From Gammaproteobacteria bacterium (GTDB taxonomy: Bacteria; Pseudomonadota; Gammaproteobacteria; Steroidobacterales; Steroidobacteraceae), in the NCBI GenBank assembly GCA_021323735.1, contig JAJPKM010000017.1:1-58762 (forward strand): a stretch of DNA of 58,762 nt, read 5' to 3'. The stretch's first letter is position 1; every line of letters begins with the position of its first letter. The position numbers and the translations under genes were made by a program. Of the stretch, positions 30,699-42,085 are shown piece by piece. The notes under the pieces are model-generated. The model had not been told where the DNA came from. It made no database searches and saw nothing but the letters and a program-made list of their open reading frames with translations.

Positions 30699-30983
30699 GT
30701 GGCAATTCAGGGATTCAAATGTAAGGATACCGAAGAGCTTTTCAGGACAGGGAAGTCGCGGCGTTTCGGCGCGATACGCAAGGTCGCTACTCGAAAGCTC
30801 ACGATGCTGGAGGCGGCAACCGTGCTTGAGGACCTGGAATCGCCGCCGGGTAATCGGCTCGAAGCGCTGGTACGTGATCGAGTGGGGCAGCACAGCATCC
30901 GCATTAACGATCAATTCCGTGCCTGCTTTGTTTGGACCGATTCAGGACCAACGGACGTTGAGATCACAAACCACTACGCGTGA
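30699..30983 (+). CDS. higB: HigB-family mRNA-interferase toxin
   Basis: GTG start at 30699 and 94 residues, the usual HigB length. Family features are the N-terminal GFKCKDTEELFRTGKSRRFG, LEAATVLEDLESPPGNRLEAL and the C-terminal core QHSIRINDQFRACFVWTDSG-VEITNHYA, which carries the Arg, Phe and Tyr/His positions of the RelE-like fold. HigB cleaves mRNA at the ribosome and is neutralised by HigA. The toxin gene precedes the antitoxin gene, the characteristic order of this family, with a 13-bp gap. Both products look complete. Confidence 0.93.
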   Translation: MAIQGFKCKDTEELFRTGKSRRFGAIRKVATRKLTMLEAATVLEDLESPPGNRLEALVRDRVGQHSIRINDQFRACFVWTDSGPTDVEITNHYA

Positions 30984-30996
30984 GGGGCAGGATTAT

Positions 30997-31314
30997 ATGA
31001 CTTTCAAGAACGGAATGCGTCCGGTTCACCCCGGCGAAGTGCTTCGTGAAGAGTACTTGAACCCATTGGAGCTGAGCGCAAATGCACTTGCCAAGGCTCT
31101 ACACCTGAGCCCGTCGCGCATTGGTGATATCGTTCTGGAGCGCCGGGGCATCACTGCCGATACCGCTATGCGACTCGCGCGCTACTTCGGCGGCACCGCG
31201 CAGTTCTGGCTGAACTTGCAATCTTTATACGATCTGCGAACGGCGGAGCGTTCTGCGGAAACGAAGCGCGCCATCCGGGAGATTGAACCCCTTGATCACG
31301 AGGCGGTAGCCTGA
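30997..31314 (+). CDS. higA: HigA-family antitoxin (XRE-type DNA-binding protein)
   Basis: The ATG at 30997 gives 105 residues, preceded by GGGGCAGGATT as a ribosome binding site. The HigA signature is clear: MRPVHPGEVLREEYLNPLELSANALAKALHLSPSRIGDI as first helices and helix-turn-helix, then AMRLARYFGGTAQFWLNLQ. It binds HigB and represses the higBA promoter as a dimer. The C-terminal tail (EIEPLDHEAVA) is short and acidic. The operon has no other obvious members. Confidence 0.95.
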   Translation: MTFKNGMRPVHPGEVLREEYLNPLELSANALAKALHLSPSRIGDIVLERRGITADTAMRLARYFGGTAQFWLNLQSLYDLRTAERSAETKRAIREIEPLDHEAVA

Positions 31315-31360: not shown

Positions 31361-32005
31361 CTAGCTCCCTGCGCGACGCGCAGCGGCCACCGCGGCTTGC
31401 AAGCCTCCCAAGTCCGAGAGATTCGAGACCCGTTGCCGTCCGATCAACACGCCCGGTGTTCCGCGCATTCCCAAACCGCGCGCCTCGGCGTCATTGCGCA
31501 TCAGCAGTGCGTTGATGGGTGCATCATGCGCGGCCAAATCTTTCTTCAACCGATCCATGTCGATGCCGGCACCGCGCAACGCCGCATCAACTTGACTGTT
31601 TTCCGCCAGCCGTGGGGCGCTGATCAGGGCGTCGTGCGCCTGCAGGTACTTTCCCTGATAGGTGGCTGCCAAGGCTGATTGCGCCGCATAAATCGACACG
31701 CCGCCAAAGATAGGCCACTCCTTATATAGGACTGCCGCGGCATGATCATGTGCGATGAAGGGATGGAAGGCGGGCGCCAGCTCTTTGCAGAACGGGCAGT
31801 TGTAGTCGAAGTATTCCACGATGGTGATGTCGGCAGTGGTAGAGCCCAGCAAGGGAACACCGGGCTCATGGAGCAGGTGCTTTTGTACTTCTGCCGAAAT
31901 CGGCGGCGGATTCTGCGCGCCGGCCACGGTCGGTAGCGCCAAGCCAATCACTTGCGCGGCGAGCAATGAGACCAGGCCGCAATGGGTGAGAAATCCGCCT
32001 TTCAT
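31361..32005 (-). CDS. DsbA-family periplasmic thiol-disulphide oxidoreductase
   Basis: 214 residues with a signal peptide (LVSLLAAQVIGLALPTVAGAQ). The thioredoxin-fold active site is Cys70-Pro-Phe-Cys73 in VEYFDYNCPFCKEL, and the cis-proline loop is MRGTPGVLIG. The order and the DYNCPFC motif match the ScsC/BdbD/Com1-like branch of DsbA rather than E. coli DsbA (CPHC). Members oxidise or isomerise disulphides in the periplasm and some protect against copper. It is the last of four minus-strand genes starting with doxX at 33692, and the gene just upstream (32049-32819) also encodes a thioredoxin-like secreted protein with a CSSC motif. Confidence 0.9.
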   Translation of the reverse strand: MKGGFLTHCGLVSLLAAQVIGLALPTVAGAQNPPPISAEVQKHLLHEPGVPLLGSTTADITIVEYFDYNCPFCKELAPAFHPFIAHDHAAAVLYKEWPIFGGVSIYAAQSALAATYQGKYLQAHDALISAPRLAENSQVDAALRGAGIDMDRLKKDLAAHDAPINALLMRNDAEARGLGMRGTPGVLIGRQRVSNLSDLGGLQAAVAAARRAGS

Positions 32006-32048: not shown

Positions 32049-32819
32049 CTAATTCGTCTGGGTGCCCGGCGCAGCCGCAGCGCGCAGTGCGGCCACGGCG
32101 CTGCCAACGATACTCCCCTGGTTGCCACGCTGCAGCAAAACGGCCACTTGCGTTGCGTCGGCGGGAAACGAAGACAGCGGCACCCGCAGGACGCTCGGCT
32201 TACCGTCCCATGCCGCCACCCGGCGGAATTGCCGCACGATATTGTACTCCGTGAGAGTTCGGCCGGAATTCTCGCCTCTGCCCACCGCGGTAGTGGCCTG
32301 CGGAAGATAGGCGACCACGTTGAGGTCGCAACCATTCTGCGCGGCGCGTTCCGGCAGGCTCACGGTCAGCTCGCTGCCTGTGACCTCGACGCCGATCGGC
32401 ACGTCCTGCTGCCGCTCCGCCAGCGCAGCCAGGATCCGCCGGCGATCGGAGCCGACATAGCTGGCCCTGCCGTCGATCACGACCTGCGGCGTGAACGCCG
32501 ACGACAAATTGAGGGAATCTACATATCGAACTTGGCGTGGCGTGGCCGTGGGGATTTCATATCGGTCGCGCCATCCAATGTTGTCCCAGTAGTCCACATG
32601 GAATGCCAGCGCAATGACATTGGGGAGCCTCGCGATCTCGCCGAGCAGGGCGTCGGCGGGCGGACAGGAACTGCAGCCTTGAGAGGTAAACAATTCCACC
32701 ACCACCGGTTTGGCGGGCGCCGCAGTCTCCGCATGCCCCTGATACGTCGTACACAACGCGGCCATCGCGAACAGACTCGAAGAAAAGGCCATTTTATTGA
32801 GCCACATCATACGAATCAC
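32049..32819 (-). CDS. DUF1223 secreted thioredoxin-like protein
   Basis: 256 residues from ATG 32819, with ATG 32792 also possible. A signal-like segment (AFSSSLFAMAALCTTYQGHAET) precedes KPVVVELFTSQGCSSCPPADALL, the family opening with a CxxC pair at 49 and 52. DUF1223 continues with VIALAFHVDYWDNIGWRDRY, FTPQVVIDGRASYVGSDR and a C-terminal beta domain. The CxxC after a beta-strand and the FTPQVVIDG cis-proline-like loop suggest thiol redox or metal-thiol chemistry in the periplasm, though the biochemical role is unproven. It lies 43 bp upstream of the DsbA-like gene on the same strand and after the hairpin ending the bufferin-like gene. Confidence 0.85.
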   Translation of the reverse strand: MIRMMWLNKMAFSSSLFAMAALCTTYQGHAETAAPAKPVVVELFTSQGCSSCPPADALLGEIARLPNVIALAFHVDYWDNIGWRDRYEIPTATPRQVRYVDSLNLSSAFTPQVVIDGRASYVGSDRRRILAALAERQQDVPIGVEVTGSELTVSLPERAAQNGCDLNVVAYLPQATTAVGRGENSGRTLTEYNIVRQFRRVAAWDGKPSVLRVPLSSFPADATQVAVLLQRGNQGSIVGSAVAALRAAAAPGTQTN

Positions 32820-32867
32820 CGCCTTCCGAAGATTACCGACCCACTCTTACCGGCACGGAGGCCCAGG

Positions 32868-32893
32868 GAAAGGGAGGGGGCGTTCCCCCTCCC
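32868..32893 (-). terminator. Hairpin terminator or attenuator after the bufferin-like gene
   Basis: GGGAGGGGG and CCCCCTCCC (32872-32880 and 32885-32893) form a perfect nine-base stem with a four-base loop. On the minus strand it is followed by TTTCCC, a short T-rich tail. It lies 18 bp past the stop of the cysteine-rich gene and before the DUF1223 start. It may terminate much of the transcription so that the small peptide is made in excess over DUF1223. Confidence 0.6.
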
Positions 32894-32910
32894 AGGCCTT
32901 GATCGGCCGG

Positions 32911-33162
32911 TTACTTCTTCGCTTTCGCCGCGTCGCAGTCCTTCTGCGTCGTTTCCTTGAAGCCTTGTCCCTTGCAGGAGTTCTGGCCTTTGCAGGCGTT
33001 CTTCGCCGTCTTGCAGGACGACTGACCCTTGCAGGAATTGGCGCCATCGCAGTGCACTTTGGCCTCGTCGGCGGCGCTGGCGGTTCCAATGGAAGCAACA
33101 CTGAACAGGAGAGCGGCGGCCGTGGCAATCGCGGCGCCGGAGACGGACTTCGACATGAGCAT
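32911..33162 (-). CDS. bufA2: BufA2-like bufferin, periplasmic cysteine-rich peptide
   Basis: The ATG at 33162 follows GAGGAATTTACC and gives 83 residues. A signal peptide (about 1-30, SGAAIATAAALLFSVASIGTASA) precedes a short hydrophilic chain with six cysteines at 38, 44, 50, 57, 63 and 76 in the repeated pattern NSCKGQ-SSCK-NACKGQ-NSCKGQGF. This matches BufA2-type bufferins, ribosomally made peptides whose cysteines are converted to thiooxazoles by an MNIO (DUF692) enzyme with a DUF2063 partner and which bind copper in the periplasm. A DoxX gene, a usual operon member, lies directly upstream, but neither modifying enzyme is in the window. The family call rests on the motif, and modification is inference. 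Confidence 0.78.
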   Translation of the reverse strand: MLMSKSVSGAAIATAAALLFSVASIGTASAADEAKVHCDGANSCKGQSSCKTAKNACKGQNSCKGQGFKETTQKDCDAAKAKK

Positions 33163-33239
33163 GGTAAATTCCTCGTTGATGATGATGGCAATGAGGGATA
33201 TTCCCCTTGCCCGAAGAGAAGACCGGGGCAGGGCGTGGG

Positions 33240-33692
33240 CTATGACACGGACCGTCGGCGTCCGAGCACCCAGTCCAGGGATACGGTACCGGCACCGGCT
33301 ATGGCCAGCCACAGGAACAGCGCGAGATACTCGGTCTCGTCGAATCCGAGCAAGGTTTCCAGAGAATCCACGTCGTCCCACTTGGCGGCGAGAATGGCGA
33401 CGATCATCGTGACCCCTAGCGCACCGGCTGAGATGCGGGTGATGAGGCCAAGCAGCAGAAAGATGCCGCCGAAGAATTCAACGCCGGACACGAAGGGCGT
33501 CAGAATCTGGGGCGCCGGGATATGCCAGCTGGCAAAGTTCTCGGTAATGGCGGGCAGGTTGTGCAGCTTGCCCCAACCGCTCCACATGAATACCCATCCG
33601 ACCACGACGCGCGCGAACAGCGGAGCGAGCCAGGTGAGGTGTCGAGCGATCCGCTCGGGCCATGCGATCAACCAACCGTAGAGTGCGTTCAT
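33240..33692 (-). CDS. DoxX-family membrane protein
   Basis: The ATG at 33692 follows GAGGAATGAG, and an earlier in-frame start at 33731 lacks a site. The 150-residue protein has about four membrane helices, with the family features LAPLFARVVVGWVFMWSGWGKLHNL, FASWHIPAPQILTPFVSGVEFFGGIFLLLGLITRISAGAL and LALFLWLAIAGAGTVSLDWVLGRR. DoxX-like proteins are quinone-linked or accessory inner-membrane proteins, and one is a regular member of bufferin operons (BufD position). Here it lies 77 bp upstream of the bufferin-like gene and should be cotranscribed with it. Confidence 0.88.
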   Translation of the reverse strand: MNALYGWLIAWPERIARHLTWLAPLFARVVVGWVFMWSGWGKLHNLPAITENFASWHIPAPQILTPFVSGVEFFGGIFLLLGLITRISAGALGVTMIVAILAAKWDDVDSLETLLGFDETEYLALFLWLAIAGAGTVSLDWVLGRRRSVS

Positions 33693-33834
33693 CTCATTCC
33701 TCGTTTGTTCGGGTTGCATCCGCTCGATCACCGTGGCGGTACGCGTCGAGTATTGAAATCGTACCCACTAAAGACCGGGTTGCGTGGACAATTATTTCGC
33801 TGCGCGGACAGTGGCCAGGATGATCATTGACTGC

Positions 33835-41263: not shown

Positions 41264-42085
41264 TCAATCGCTAACCTTCTGCGCGATGATTTCCATCACC
41301 ATGGGCGTCACGAGGATGGCGTCTGGGTTCGCCGCCAGTGTTTTGAATTCCCTCTGCAGGATGTCAGCCCAATGCTGGGACACTCGGCCTAGCTCCACGA
41401 GCCGCTGAGAATTGCTCTGCACAAAAGCCGCCGGCCACTGCCACATGAAGTCCGACGGATGTACCGCAAAAACCAGCGGTCTCGTCTCAACTAGTCTCAA
41501 GCCATGCGCCGCCAGCAAGGGAATGAGAGAGGGCGCGATATTAGGTTCGCCACCCGCGGCTCGCCAGCTCATCATGACTTCCTCGACAAAGCTCTCCAGT
41601 GGCGGGCATCTCGGAATCGCCCGCCACGTACCGTAGTCCTGATATTCGTGAAATACGGCGTTGCCGCCGATGCGCAACGAGGCAGCGATGTTCTGGACCA
41701 GTTTTGCCGGATGCGTAACGAACGAAGCGACCCAGCGGCACCAGGCGACATCGATACCCGAGAGTTCCCATGGGCCCTCGACCACATCACGCTCGACGAG
41801 CCGCACATTACGCACTCCGCGGCGTTCAATCTCGCTCCTGGCAAAGCTTGAGAAATTCACCGATCTTTCCAGCGCCACGACCTCGCCGCCGGCCCCAACA
41901 ATCTCCGCGGCGTCAAGGCTGGCGTATCCGGGACCTGCGCCGAAGTCCGCAACTTTTGAACCCGTCGTCATGCCCGCGCGCATCCAGGCATCCAGCACAT
42001 GGGGTCGCCAGACCCGGTGCTGCAGACCGAGACGGGCAATCTCATCCATGCGCGTGCCCAGGACATAGTCGTCAGCTTTATTCAT
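41264..42085 (-). CDS. Class I SAM-dependent methyltransferase
   Basis: The ATG at 42085 gives 273 residues (MNKADDYVLGTRMDEIARLGLQHRVW). An earlier in-frame start at 42211 adds an unsupported segment. Motif I is VADFGAGPGYASLDAAEIVG, followed by an acidic residue after strand two (VVALERS) and motif post-I. IDVAWCRWVASFV and LRIGGNAVFHEYQDYG fit motifs II and III. It transfers a methyl group from S-adenosylmethionine. The region after 150 (MMSWRAAGGEPNIAPSLIPLLAAHGLRLVETRP) is typical of small-molecule methyltransferases, but the substrate is not evident. It is the next gene after mrdA on the strand, 135 bp past it, and may be read from the same transcript. Confidence 0.85.
   Translation of the reverse strand: MNKADDYVLGTRMDEIARLGLQHRVWRPHVLDAWMRAGMTTGSKVADFGAGPGYASLDAAEIVGAGGEVVALERSVNFSSFARSEIERRGVRNVRLVERDVVEGPWELSGIDVAWCRWVASFVTHPAKLVQNIAASLRIGGNAVFHEYQDYGTWRAIPRCPPLESFVEEVMMSWRAAGGEPNIAPSLIPLLAAHGLRLVETRPLVFAVHPSDFMWQWPAAFVQSNSQRLVELGRVSQHWADILQREFKTLAANPDAILVTPMVMEIIAQKVSD

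Follow-up and report, generated by a model that had tools for sequence, protein, structure and literature searches.

Gene Organization of the Locus

The window, by which we mean the complete stretch of 58,762 nucleotides analysed here, is contig C11 of a draft genome that is 95.9% complete and assembled in 58 contigs. It carries a cluster of four genes on the minus strand, in the order doxX, bufA2, DUF1223 gene and dsbA-like gene, separated by gaps of 77, 91 and 43 bases. The features are the following, in the direction of reading:

33240..33692 (-): doxX, first gene of the cluster, coding a DoxX-family membrane protein (PF07681)
32911..33162 (-): bufA2, coding a BufA2-type bufferin precursor of 83 amino acids with six cysteines (NF050166)
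32872..32893 (-): G+C-rich hairpin (GGGAGGGGG/CCCCCTCCC), from the fold of 32815-32935(-)
32049..32819 (-): gene of a DUF1223 protein with a CSSC motif (PF06764; solved homologue 2axo)
31361..32005 (-): gene of a DsbA-like protein with a CPFC motif (PF01323)

The doxX product, scanned as the longer frame 33240-33731, scores 78.1 bits with PF07681, above the Pfam cut-off, and 61.6 bits with the NF050144 HvfX model, whose cut-off is 80; it passes as DoxX by Pfam but falls short of the HvfX model. The DUF1223 protein is above the cut-off of PF06764 (193.5 bits) and matches the solved homologue 2axo with an E value of 8.9e-36. The DsbA-like protein, whose leader reads as a signal peptide on inspection, is above the Pfam cut-off of PF01323 (54.9 bits) and matches the solved structures 3gyk (E 1.9e-29), 4gxz (2.6e-13) and 6nen (6.9e-13). 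An initial annotation had described a doxX gene preceding a BufA2 peptide with a repeated NSCKGQ pattern, and DUF1223 (CSSC) and DsbA-like (CPFC) genes downstream. The model matches bear this out, with doxX 77 bases upstream of bufA2 on the same strand and the DsbA-like gene at 31361-32005, outside the interval 32049-33692 then given for the cluster.

The hairpin begins 17 bases past the end of bufA2, lacks a T run and was not called by the terminator scan. The whole stretch 32815-32935(-) folds at -56.3 kcal/mol (z -2.11), a value reached by 9 of 200 shuffles. A role as an attenuator or as a stabiliser of the 3′ end is possible. No promoter-like site came out of the sigma-70 scan, against a mean of 1.0 in shuffles; terminator-like sites numbered two (shuffles mean 2.9). 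A HigB-like toxin gene and its helix-turn-helix partner adjoin the cluster on the + strand (30699-31314). The only tRNA gene that ARAGORN finds in the window codes tRNA-Cys (41976-42054, - strand).

Identity and Conservation of the BufA2 Peptide

A bufferin HMM, the check suggested with the initial annotation, does match the 83-residue peptide: it reaches 89.7 bits with NF050166 (Cu_RiPP_BufA2), for which the curated cut-off is 60. The peptide has NSCKGQ twice and six cysteines with a spacing of 6, 6, 7, 6 and 13, as found in most members linked to an MNIO gene. Its N-terminus reads on inspection as a Sec signal peptide, similar to those of the other sequences in a 42-sequence alignment (A2), in which both leader and cysteines are conserved as in the MNIO-linked peptides. 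A structure prediction from 42 sequences had a mean pLDDT of 51.6 and was set aside. Comparison with the MNIO-linked bufA2 of genome G053 gives a dN of 0.10 and a dS of 1.31, thus a dN/dS of about 0.08, a ratio obtained from a gene of 83 codons with dS nearly saturated and blind to recent loss of function. It shows that the window bufA2 is under purifying selection.

Maturation Enzymes Elsewhere in the Genome

A tblastn search of the window with the genome's own MNIO and DUF2063 proteins gave no match (E 1e-3), in agreement with the initial annotation, which had noted both as missing. A PF05114 search of the genome identified two MNIOs, on contigs C45 (378.1 bits) and C4 (137.5 bits), and none on C11. 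On C45 the genes are ordered bufA2, MNIO, DUF2063. The C45 MNIO passes the NF050167 BufB maturase model (390.9 bits, cut-off 310). Its DUF2063 partner scores 75.9 bits with Pfam DUF2063 (cut-off 27.2) and is far under the NCBIfam HvfC cut-off (40.6 versus 142 bits), a point against modification of the window peptide in trans. The C45 bufA2 reaches 91.2 bits with the BufA2 model. At E values up to 0.01 this model matches the genome twice, once on C45 and once in the window. The two peptides are 56% identical, with all six cysteines in common at the same spacing. No DoxX gene was found near the C45 operon within the 16 kb examined, and a CcdA-like sequence is present at one place in the genome (C34, 30% identity).

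The window gene is a second, stand-alone bufA2 paired with doxX, whose peptide is most likely modified in trans by the C45 MNIO (BufB) and DUF2063 protein. Two options had been put forward initially, enzymes acting in trans and a reduced, unmodified module. The first is favoured by the MNIO, DUF2063 and second bufA2 genes of C45; the second we discard as main reading, given that the genome has the enzymes. That the enzymes cluster with another bufA2 on C45 is also an outcome which the initial annotation had itself named as counting against its proposal.

A second RiPP-type cluster is found in the same genome, at 7593-15481 of L140 (G000:C4:56000-74000). It has a divergent MNIO, a TglI-like partner (54.4 bits, cut-off 450), an aKG-HExxH peptide beta-hydroxylase (TIGR04267, 84.8 bits, cut-off 40) and ABC export genes with a likeness, under the cut-off, to the darobactin exporter. 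Genes for Trb conjugation proteins lie next to it (TrbF scores 378.3 bits, cut-off 152), and no precursor was recognised in it.

Orphan and MNIO-Linked bufA2 Genes across Genomes

BufA2 matches over the cut-off were found at 19 places in 17 of 98 genomes, own genome included, most of the compared genomes being draft or metagenome assemblies. An MNIO match adjoins 17 of the 19 places, counting G028:C201 where the MNIO is only partial; the exceptions are the window and G048:C4. Among 45 BufA2 loci in the genome_contigs set MNIO is present in 30 and absent in 15 within the DNA examined for each locus. MNIO-less bufA2 loci are common. Four of the 15 were set aside (L033, which ends just past the gene; L041, divergent; L042, with N stretches and DUF2063 nearby; L049, the truncated G017 copy), leaving 11 clear intact orphans in 10 genomes (L029 and L036 share one). 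Nine of these 10 genomes have an MNIO elsewhere, the exception being G101.

A search of 16 genomes found MNIO in 13 and not in G006, G048 and G101. Two of the latter, G048 (82% complete) and G101, have an orphan BufA2 with no MNIO detected, and this counts against modification in trans; so does G006, from the same genus as the source, with a weak match to the BufA2 model (28.6 bits) and no MNIO. Six of the 10 clear-orphan genomes (G102-G107) have further BufA2 beside MNIO, and in G107 seven BufA2 matches coexist with one MNIO.

Three genomes, G098, G099 and G100, have no BufA2 detected besides the orphan. The MNIO of G098 and of G100 is found at a separate locus, flanked by two genes, one for an ECF sigma factor and one for a DUF3379 protein (identified by HMM for G098 and by tblastn for both). 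No precursor was recognised beside it: some small frames with at least four cysteines are present, none of them bufferin-like on inspection. The search of G098 and G100 covered three kinds of precursor; besides the one BufA2, neither DUF2282 nor the exact EGKCG codon pattern gave a match (the G100 contig stops inside DUF2063). The only detected precursor and maturase are thus at separate loci in these two genomes. A stretch of N before the MNIO of G099 could hide a precursor.

The pair of ECF sigma factor and DUF3379 genes, besides flanking the split MNIO of G098 and G100, also occurs in the vicinity of Buf2 genes, in the genomes G016, G035 and G054 (L116 1884-3235, L119 6120-7315, L120 3633-4810, L112 3358-4613, L114 1331-2568). 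In G035 and G054 a weaker match to the BufA2 model with its own MNIO is on the other side of the pair, which may belong to that operon.

DUF1223, DsbA-Like and Other Neighbours in Relatives

Of the 98 genomes, 14 have DUF1223. The flanks inspected were about 1.5 kb on each side and, contigs permitting, wider in G001, G004, G014, G017, G024, G030, G032 and G053. An intact bufA2 beside DUF1223 is seen only in the window and a truncated one in G017; within the wider flanks of G001, G004, G024, G030, G032 and G053 there is neither bufA2 nor DoxX, and short flanks only were covered in G027, G065, G067, G080 and G085. In G017, a member of the same genus, the DUF1223 gene (60% identical) adjoins the truncated bufA2, beyond which come genes for CcdA, thioredoxin and DoxX. 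This bufA2 remnant (L100 5167-5667; G017:C265) retains the leader and the first cysteine, continuing into unrelated sequence. A gene cut to one cysteine appears dispensable, which counts against the trans-modification reading. The G014 contig that carries a DUF1223 gene (68% identical) is 3,969 bases long; the gene adjoins a fragment of CcdA and the gene of an HExxH protein. Because the two nearest DUF1223 relatives adjoin either a bufA2 remnant or CcdA/HExxH genes, the DUF1223-bufA2 link may be real though loose. Within the texts covered, a literature search returned no paper tying DUF1223 to copper, and the main text of PMC12452194 does not mention the domain.

A survey of 60 genomes that included the source genome, but not G040, G048, G053 and G054, gave matches to the DsbA-like protein in 29. 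In the ten others of these 29 that have an over-cut-off BufA2, its gene is located on contigs other than those of BufA2. The order doxX-bufA2-DUF1223-dsbA, whose recurrence in relatives the initial annotation had made a touchstone of its proposal, was found in no relative examined, and a conserved four-gene operon was rejected.

An HExxH-motif protein is encoded near bufA2 in 5 of the 45 genome_contigs loci (L006, L010, L018, L042 and L043, with gamma-, alpha- and delta/myxobacterial titles) and also beside DUF1223 in G014. Its coordinates are L116 5378-6412, L010 6039-7214, L018 8743-9732, L042 4650-5633, L043 8061-8414 (cut by the contig end) and L101 1673-2608. The three copies scanned had no Pfam match at E 0.1. 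The source genome has a copy on C50, away from bufA2.

The thiol-redox genes adjoining bufA2, the window without detected MNIO, the CcdA and thioredoxin genes close to the related doxX/bufA2 loci of G016 and G017, and the orphan genomes G048 and G101 without detected MNIO would all suit a peptide that buffers thiols or copper independently of MNIO, with plain cysteines that its DUF1223 and DsbA-like neighbours keep reduced or shuffle. We consider this unlikely, as the genome encodes MNIO and DUF2063, nine of the 10 clear-orphan genomes have MNIO, leader and cysteines are kept as in MNIO-linked peptides and the DUF1223/DsbA neighbours are not conserved. Table 3 of PMC12452194 also gives Buf2 without MNIO in 0 of 864 genomes.

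DoxX Association and Descent of the Locus

The BufA2 tree has 58 rows (14 orphan, 43 MNIO-linked, one at a contig end); it leaves out the matches of L041-L049, which diverge, are truncated or are interrupted by N, and those of L111 and L063, whose peptides are the same as in L031 and L006, respectively. The tree requires seven changes between orphan and linked labels, and its well-supported branches demand at least four. Orphans also group together on it (0 of 500 shuffles gave as low a count). The window peptide is nearest to the MNIO-linked row of G053 (83%) and to two orphans, L005 and L010; together with the window and with G034, G016 and G048 they form the window clade, whose support is weak (84/45, few columns).

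All seven members of this clade, three with MNIO and four without, have a DoxX homologue no more than about 3 kb from bufA2. None was found at the nine clear orphan loci outside the clade, nor at eight C45-type loci (G000, G003, G008, G013, G017, G020, G021 and G024), of which the flanks are unequal and the G024 locus is only 2.7 kb. The DoxX link is therefore a property of the clade and not a general trait of orphans. A DoxX tree of 11 rows resolved nothing. In the MNIO tree the enzymes of G016, G053 and G034 group together with good support (96/100), apart from those of C45, G098 and G100. They are 61-62% identical to the C45 enzyme, which is thus not the cognate of the window peptide by descent, and this counts against modification in trans. 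With DoxX kept across the window clade and the C45 MNIO outside the clade of kin MNIOs, it would seem that doxX stayed with bufA2 when the maturase was lost, moved or replaced, a hint that DoxX goes with the peptide rather than with the maturase.

Absence from the source genome of the MNIO clade found in the nearest MNIO-linked kin could also mean that doxX-bufA2 is the decaying remainder of a former or acquired operon that lost MNIO and DUF2063. The bufA2 of same-genus G017, truncated past its first cysteine between DUF1223 and CcdA-thioredoxin-doxX, gives an example of such a fate. The window frame is open, with six cysteines and a low dN/dS relative to G053 (dS nearly saturated), and we hold decay to be distinctly improbable. 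A mis-joined or mis-binned contig falsely parting bufA2 from its enzymes, conceivable in a draft of 58 contigs, is scarcely credible for a gene in mid-contig with other genes on both sides and a G+C content of 0.607 (0.606 in the window), and separate loci recur in other genomes, mostly metagenome assemblies too.

Proposed Maturation in Trans

A BufA2 family member with intact cysteines, under purifying selection and sharing its genome with the enzymes, the window peptide would be modified in the cytoplasm by the MNIO-DUF2063 pair encoded in trans. The modified peptide would be exported and would bind copper in the periplasm. This supposes that the C45 enzymes accept the 56%-identical window precursor, that its cysteines become thiooxazoles as in the characterised bufferins and that its function is copper buffering. 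The DUF1223 and DsbA-like proteins would be helpers in periplasmic thiol chemistry at most, or mere neighbours: they might assist in making the outer disulfide or maintain thiols in the reduced state, in a neighbourhood that is not conserved.

If modification in trans is true, surveys of bufferins that start from MNIO neighbourhoods overlook some of the peptides, and a single maturase acts on several divergent substrates; G098 and G100 would then be clean test cases offered by nature. Where bufA2 genes of the window clade lack the enzymes, doxX still persists beside them, which suggests that DoxX serves to handle the peptide or to transfer copper, not in maturation. More speculatively, and as a rather improbable reading, doxX and bufA2 might constitute a portable module served by a distant maturase. 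DoxX would act with the finished peptide in the envelope, and in this lineage local thiol-redox proteins (DUF1223; CcdA-thioredoxin in G016 and G017) would recycle bufferin thiols or the outer disulfide, coupling copper buffering to periplasmic redox control.

Comparison with Known Systems

The solved relatives of the window DsbA-like protein include ScsC proteins, linked to copper. The protein is distantly related by sequence to the ScsC/Scs copper-tolerance proteins and its leader likewise reads as a signal peptide, but no ScsB-like gene was recognised in the window cluster and the genus homologues of the DsbA-like protein are found away from bufA2.

The closer likeness is to the BufA2 bufferins (Buf2, Buf_6/12Cys; NF050166), matured by the MNIO BufB and a DUF2063 protein: the window precursor passes the family model and has six cysteines at the family spacing, doxX is nearby, and maturase and partner are encoded in the same genome. 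MNIO and DUF2063 are usually in the same cluster as the precursor, whereas here they are on C45 with another bufA2. In PMC13097082 bufferins are grouped with other thiooxazole metallophores, and DoxX is named solely as a factor that might also contribute to copper binding. An involvement of the signal peptide in recognition is described as preliminary, for Buf1, in PMC12452194; the window peptide has such a leader. PMC12452194 counts precursors that are not MNIO-associated as bufferin precursors, so that clustering with MNIO is usual and not required, and proposes that stand-alone precursors are modified by an MNIO at another locus, or not at all. The window bufA2 locus belongs to this already reported kind. 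Like the stand-alone Buf2 precursors described there, it is a precursor gene without associated MNIO genes; unlike them, it keeps doxX, with the DUF1223 and dsbA-like genes in line.
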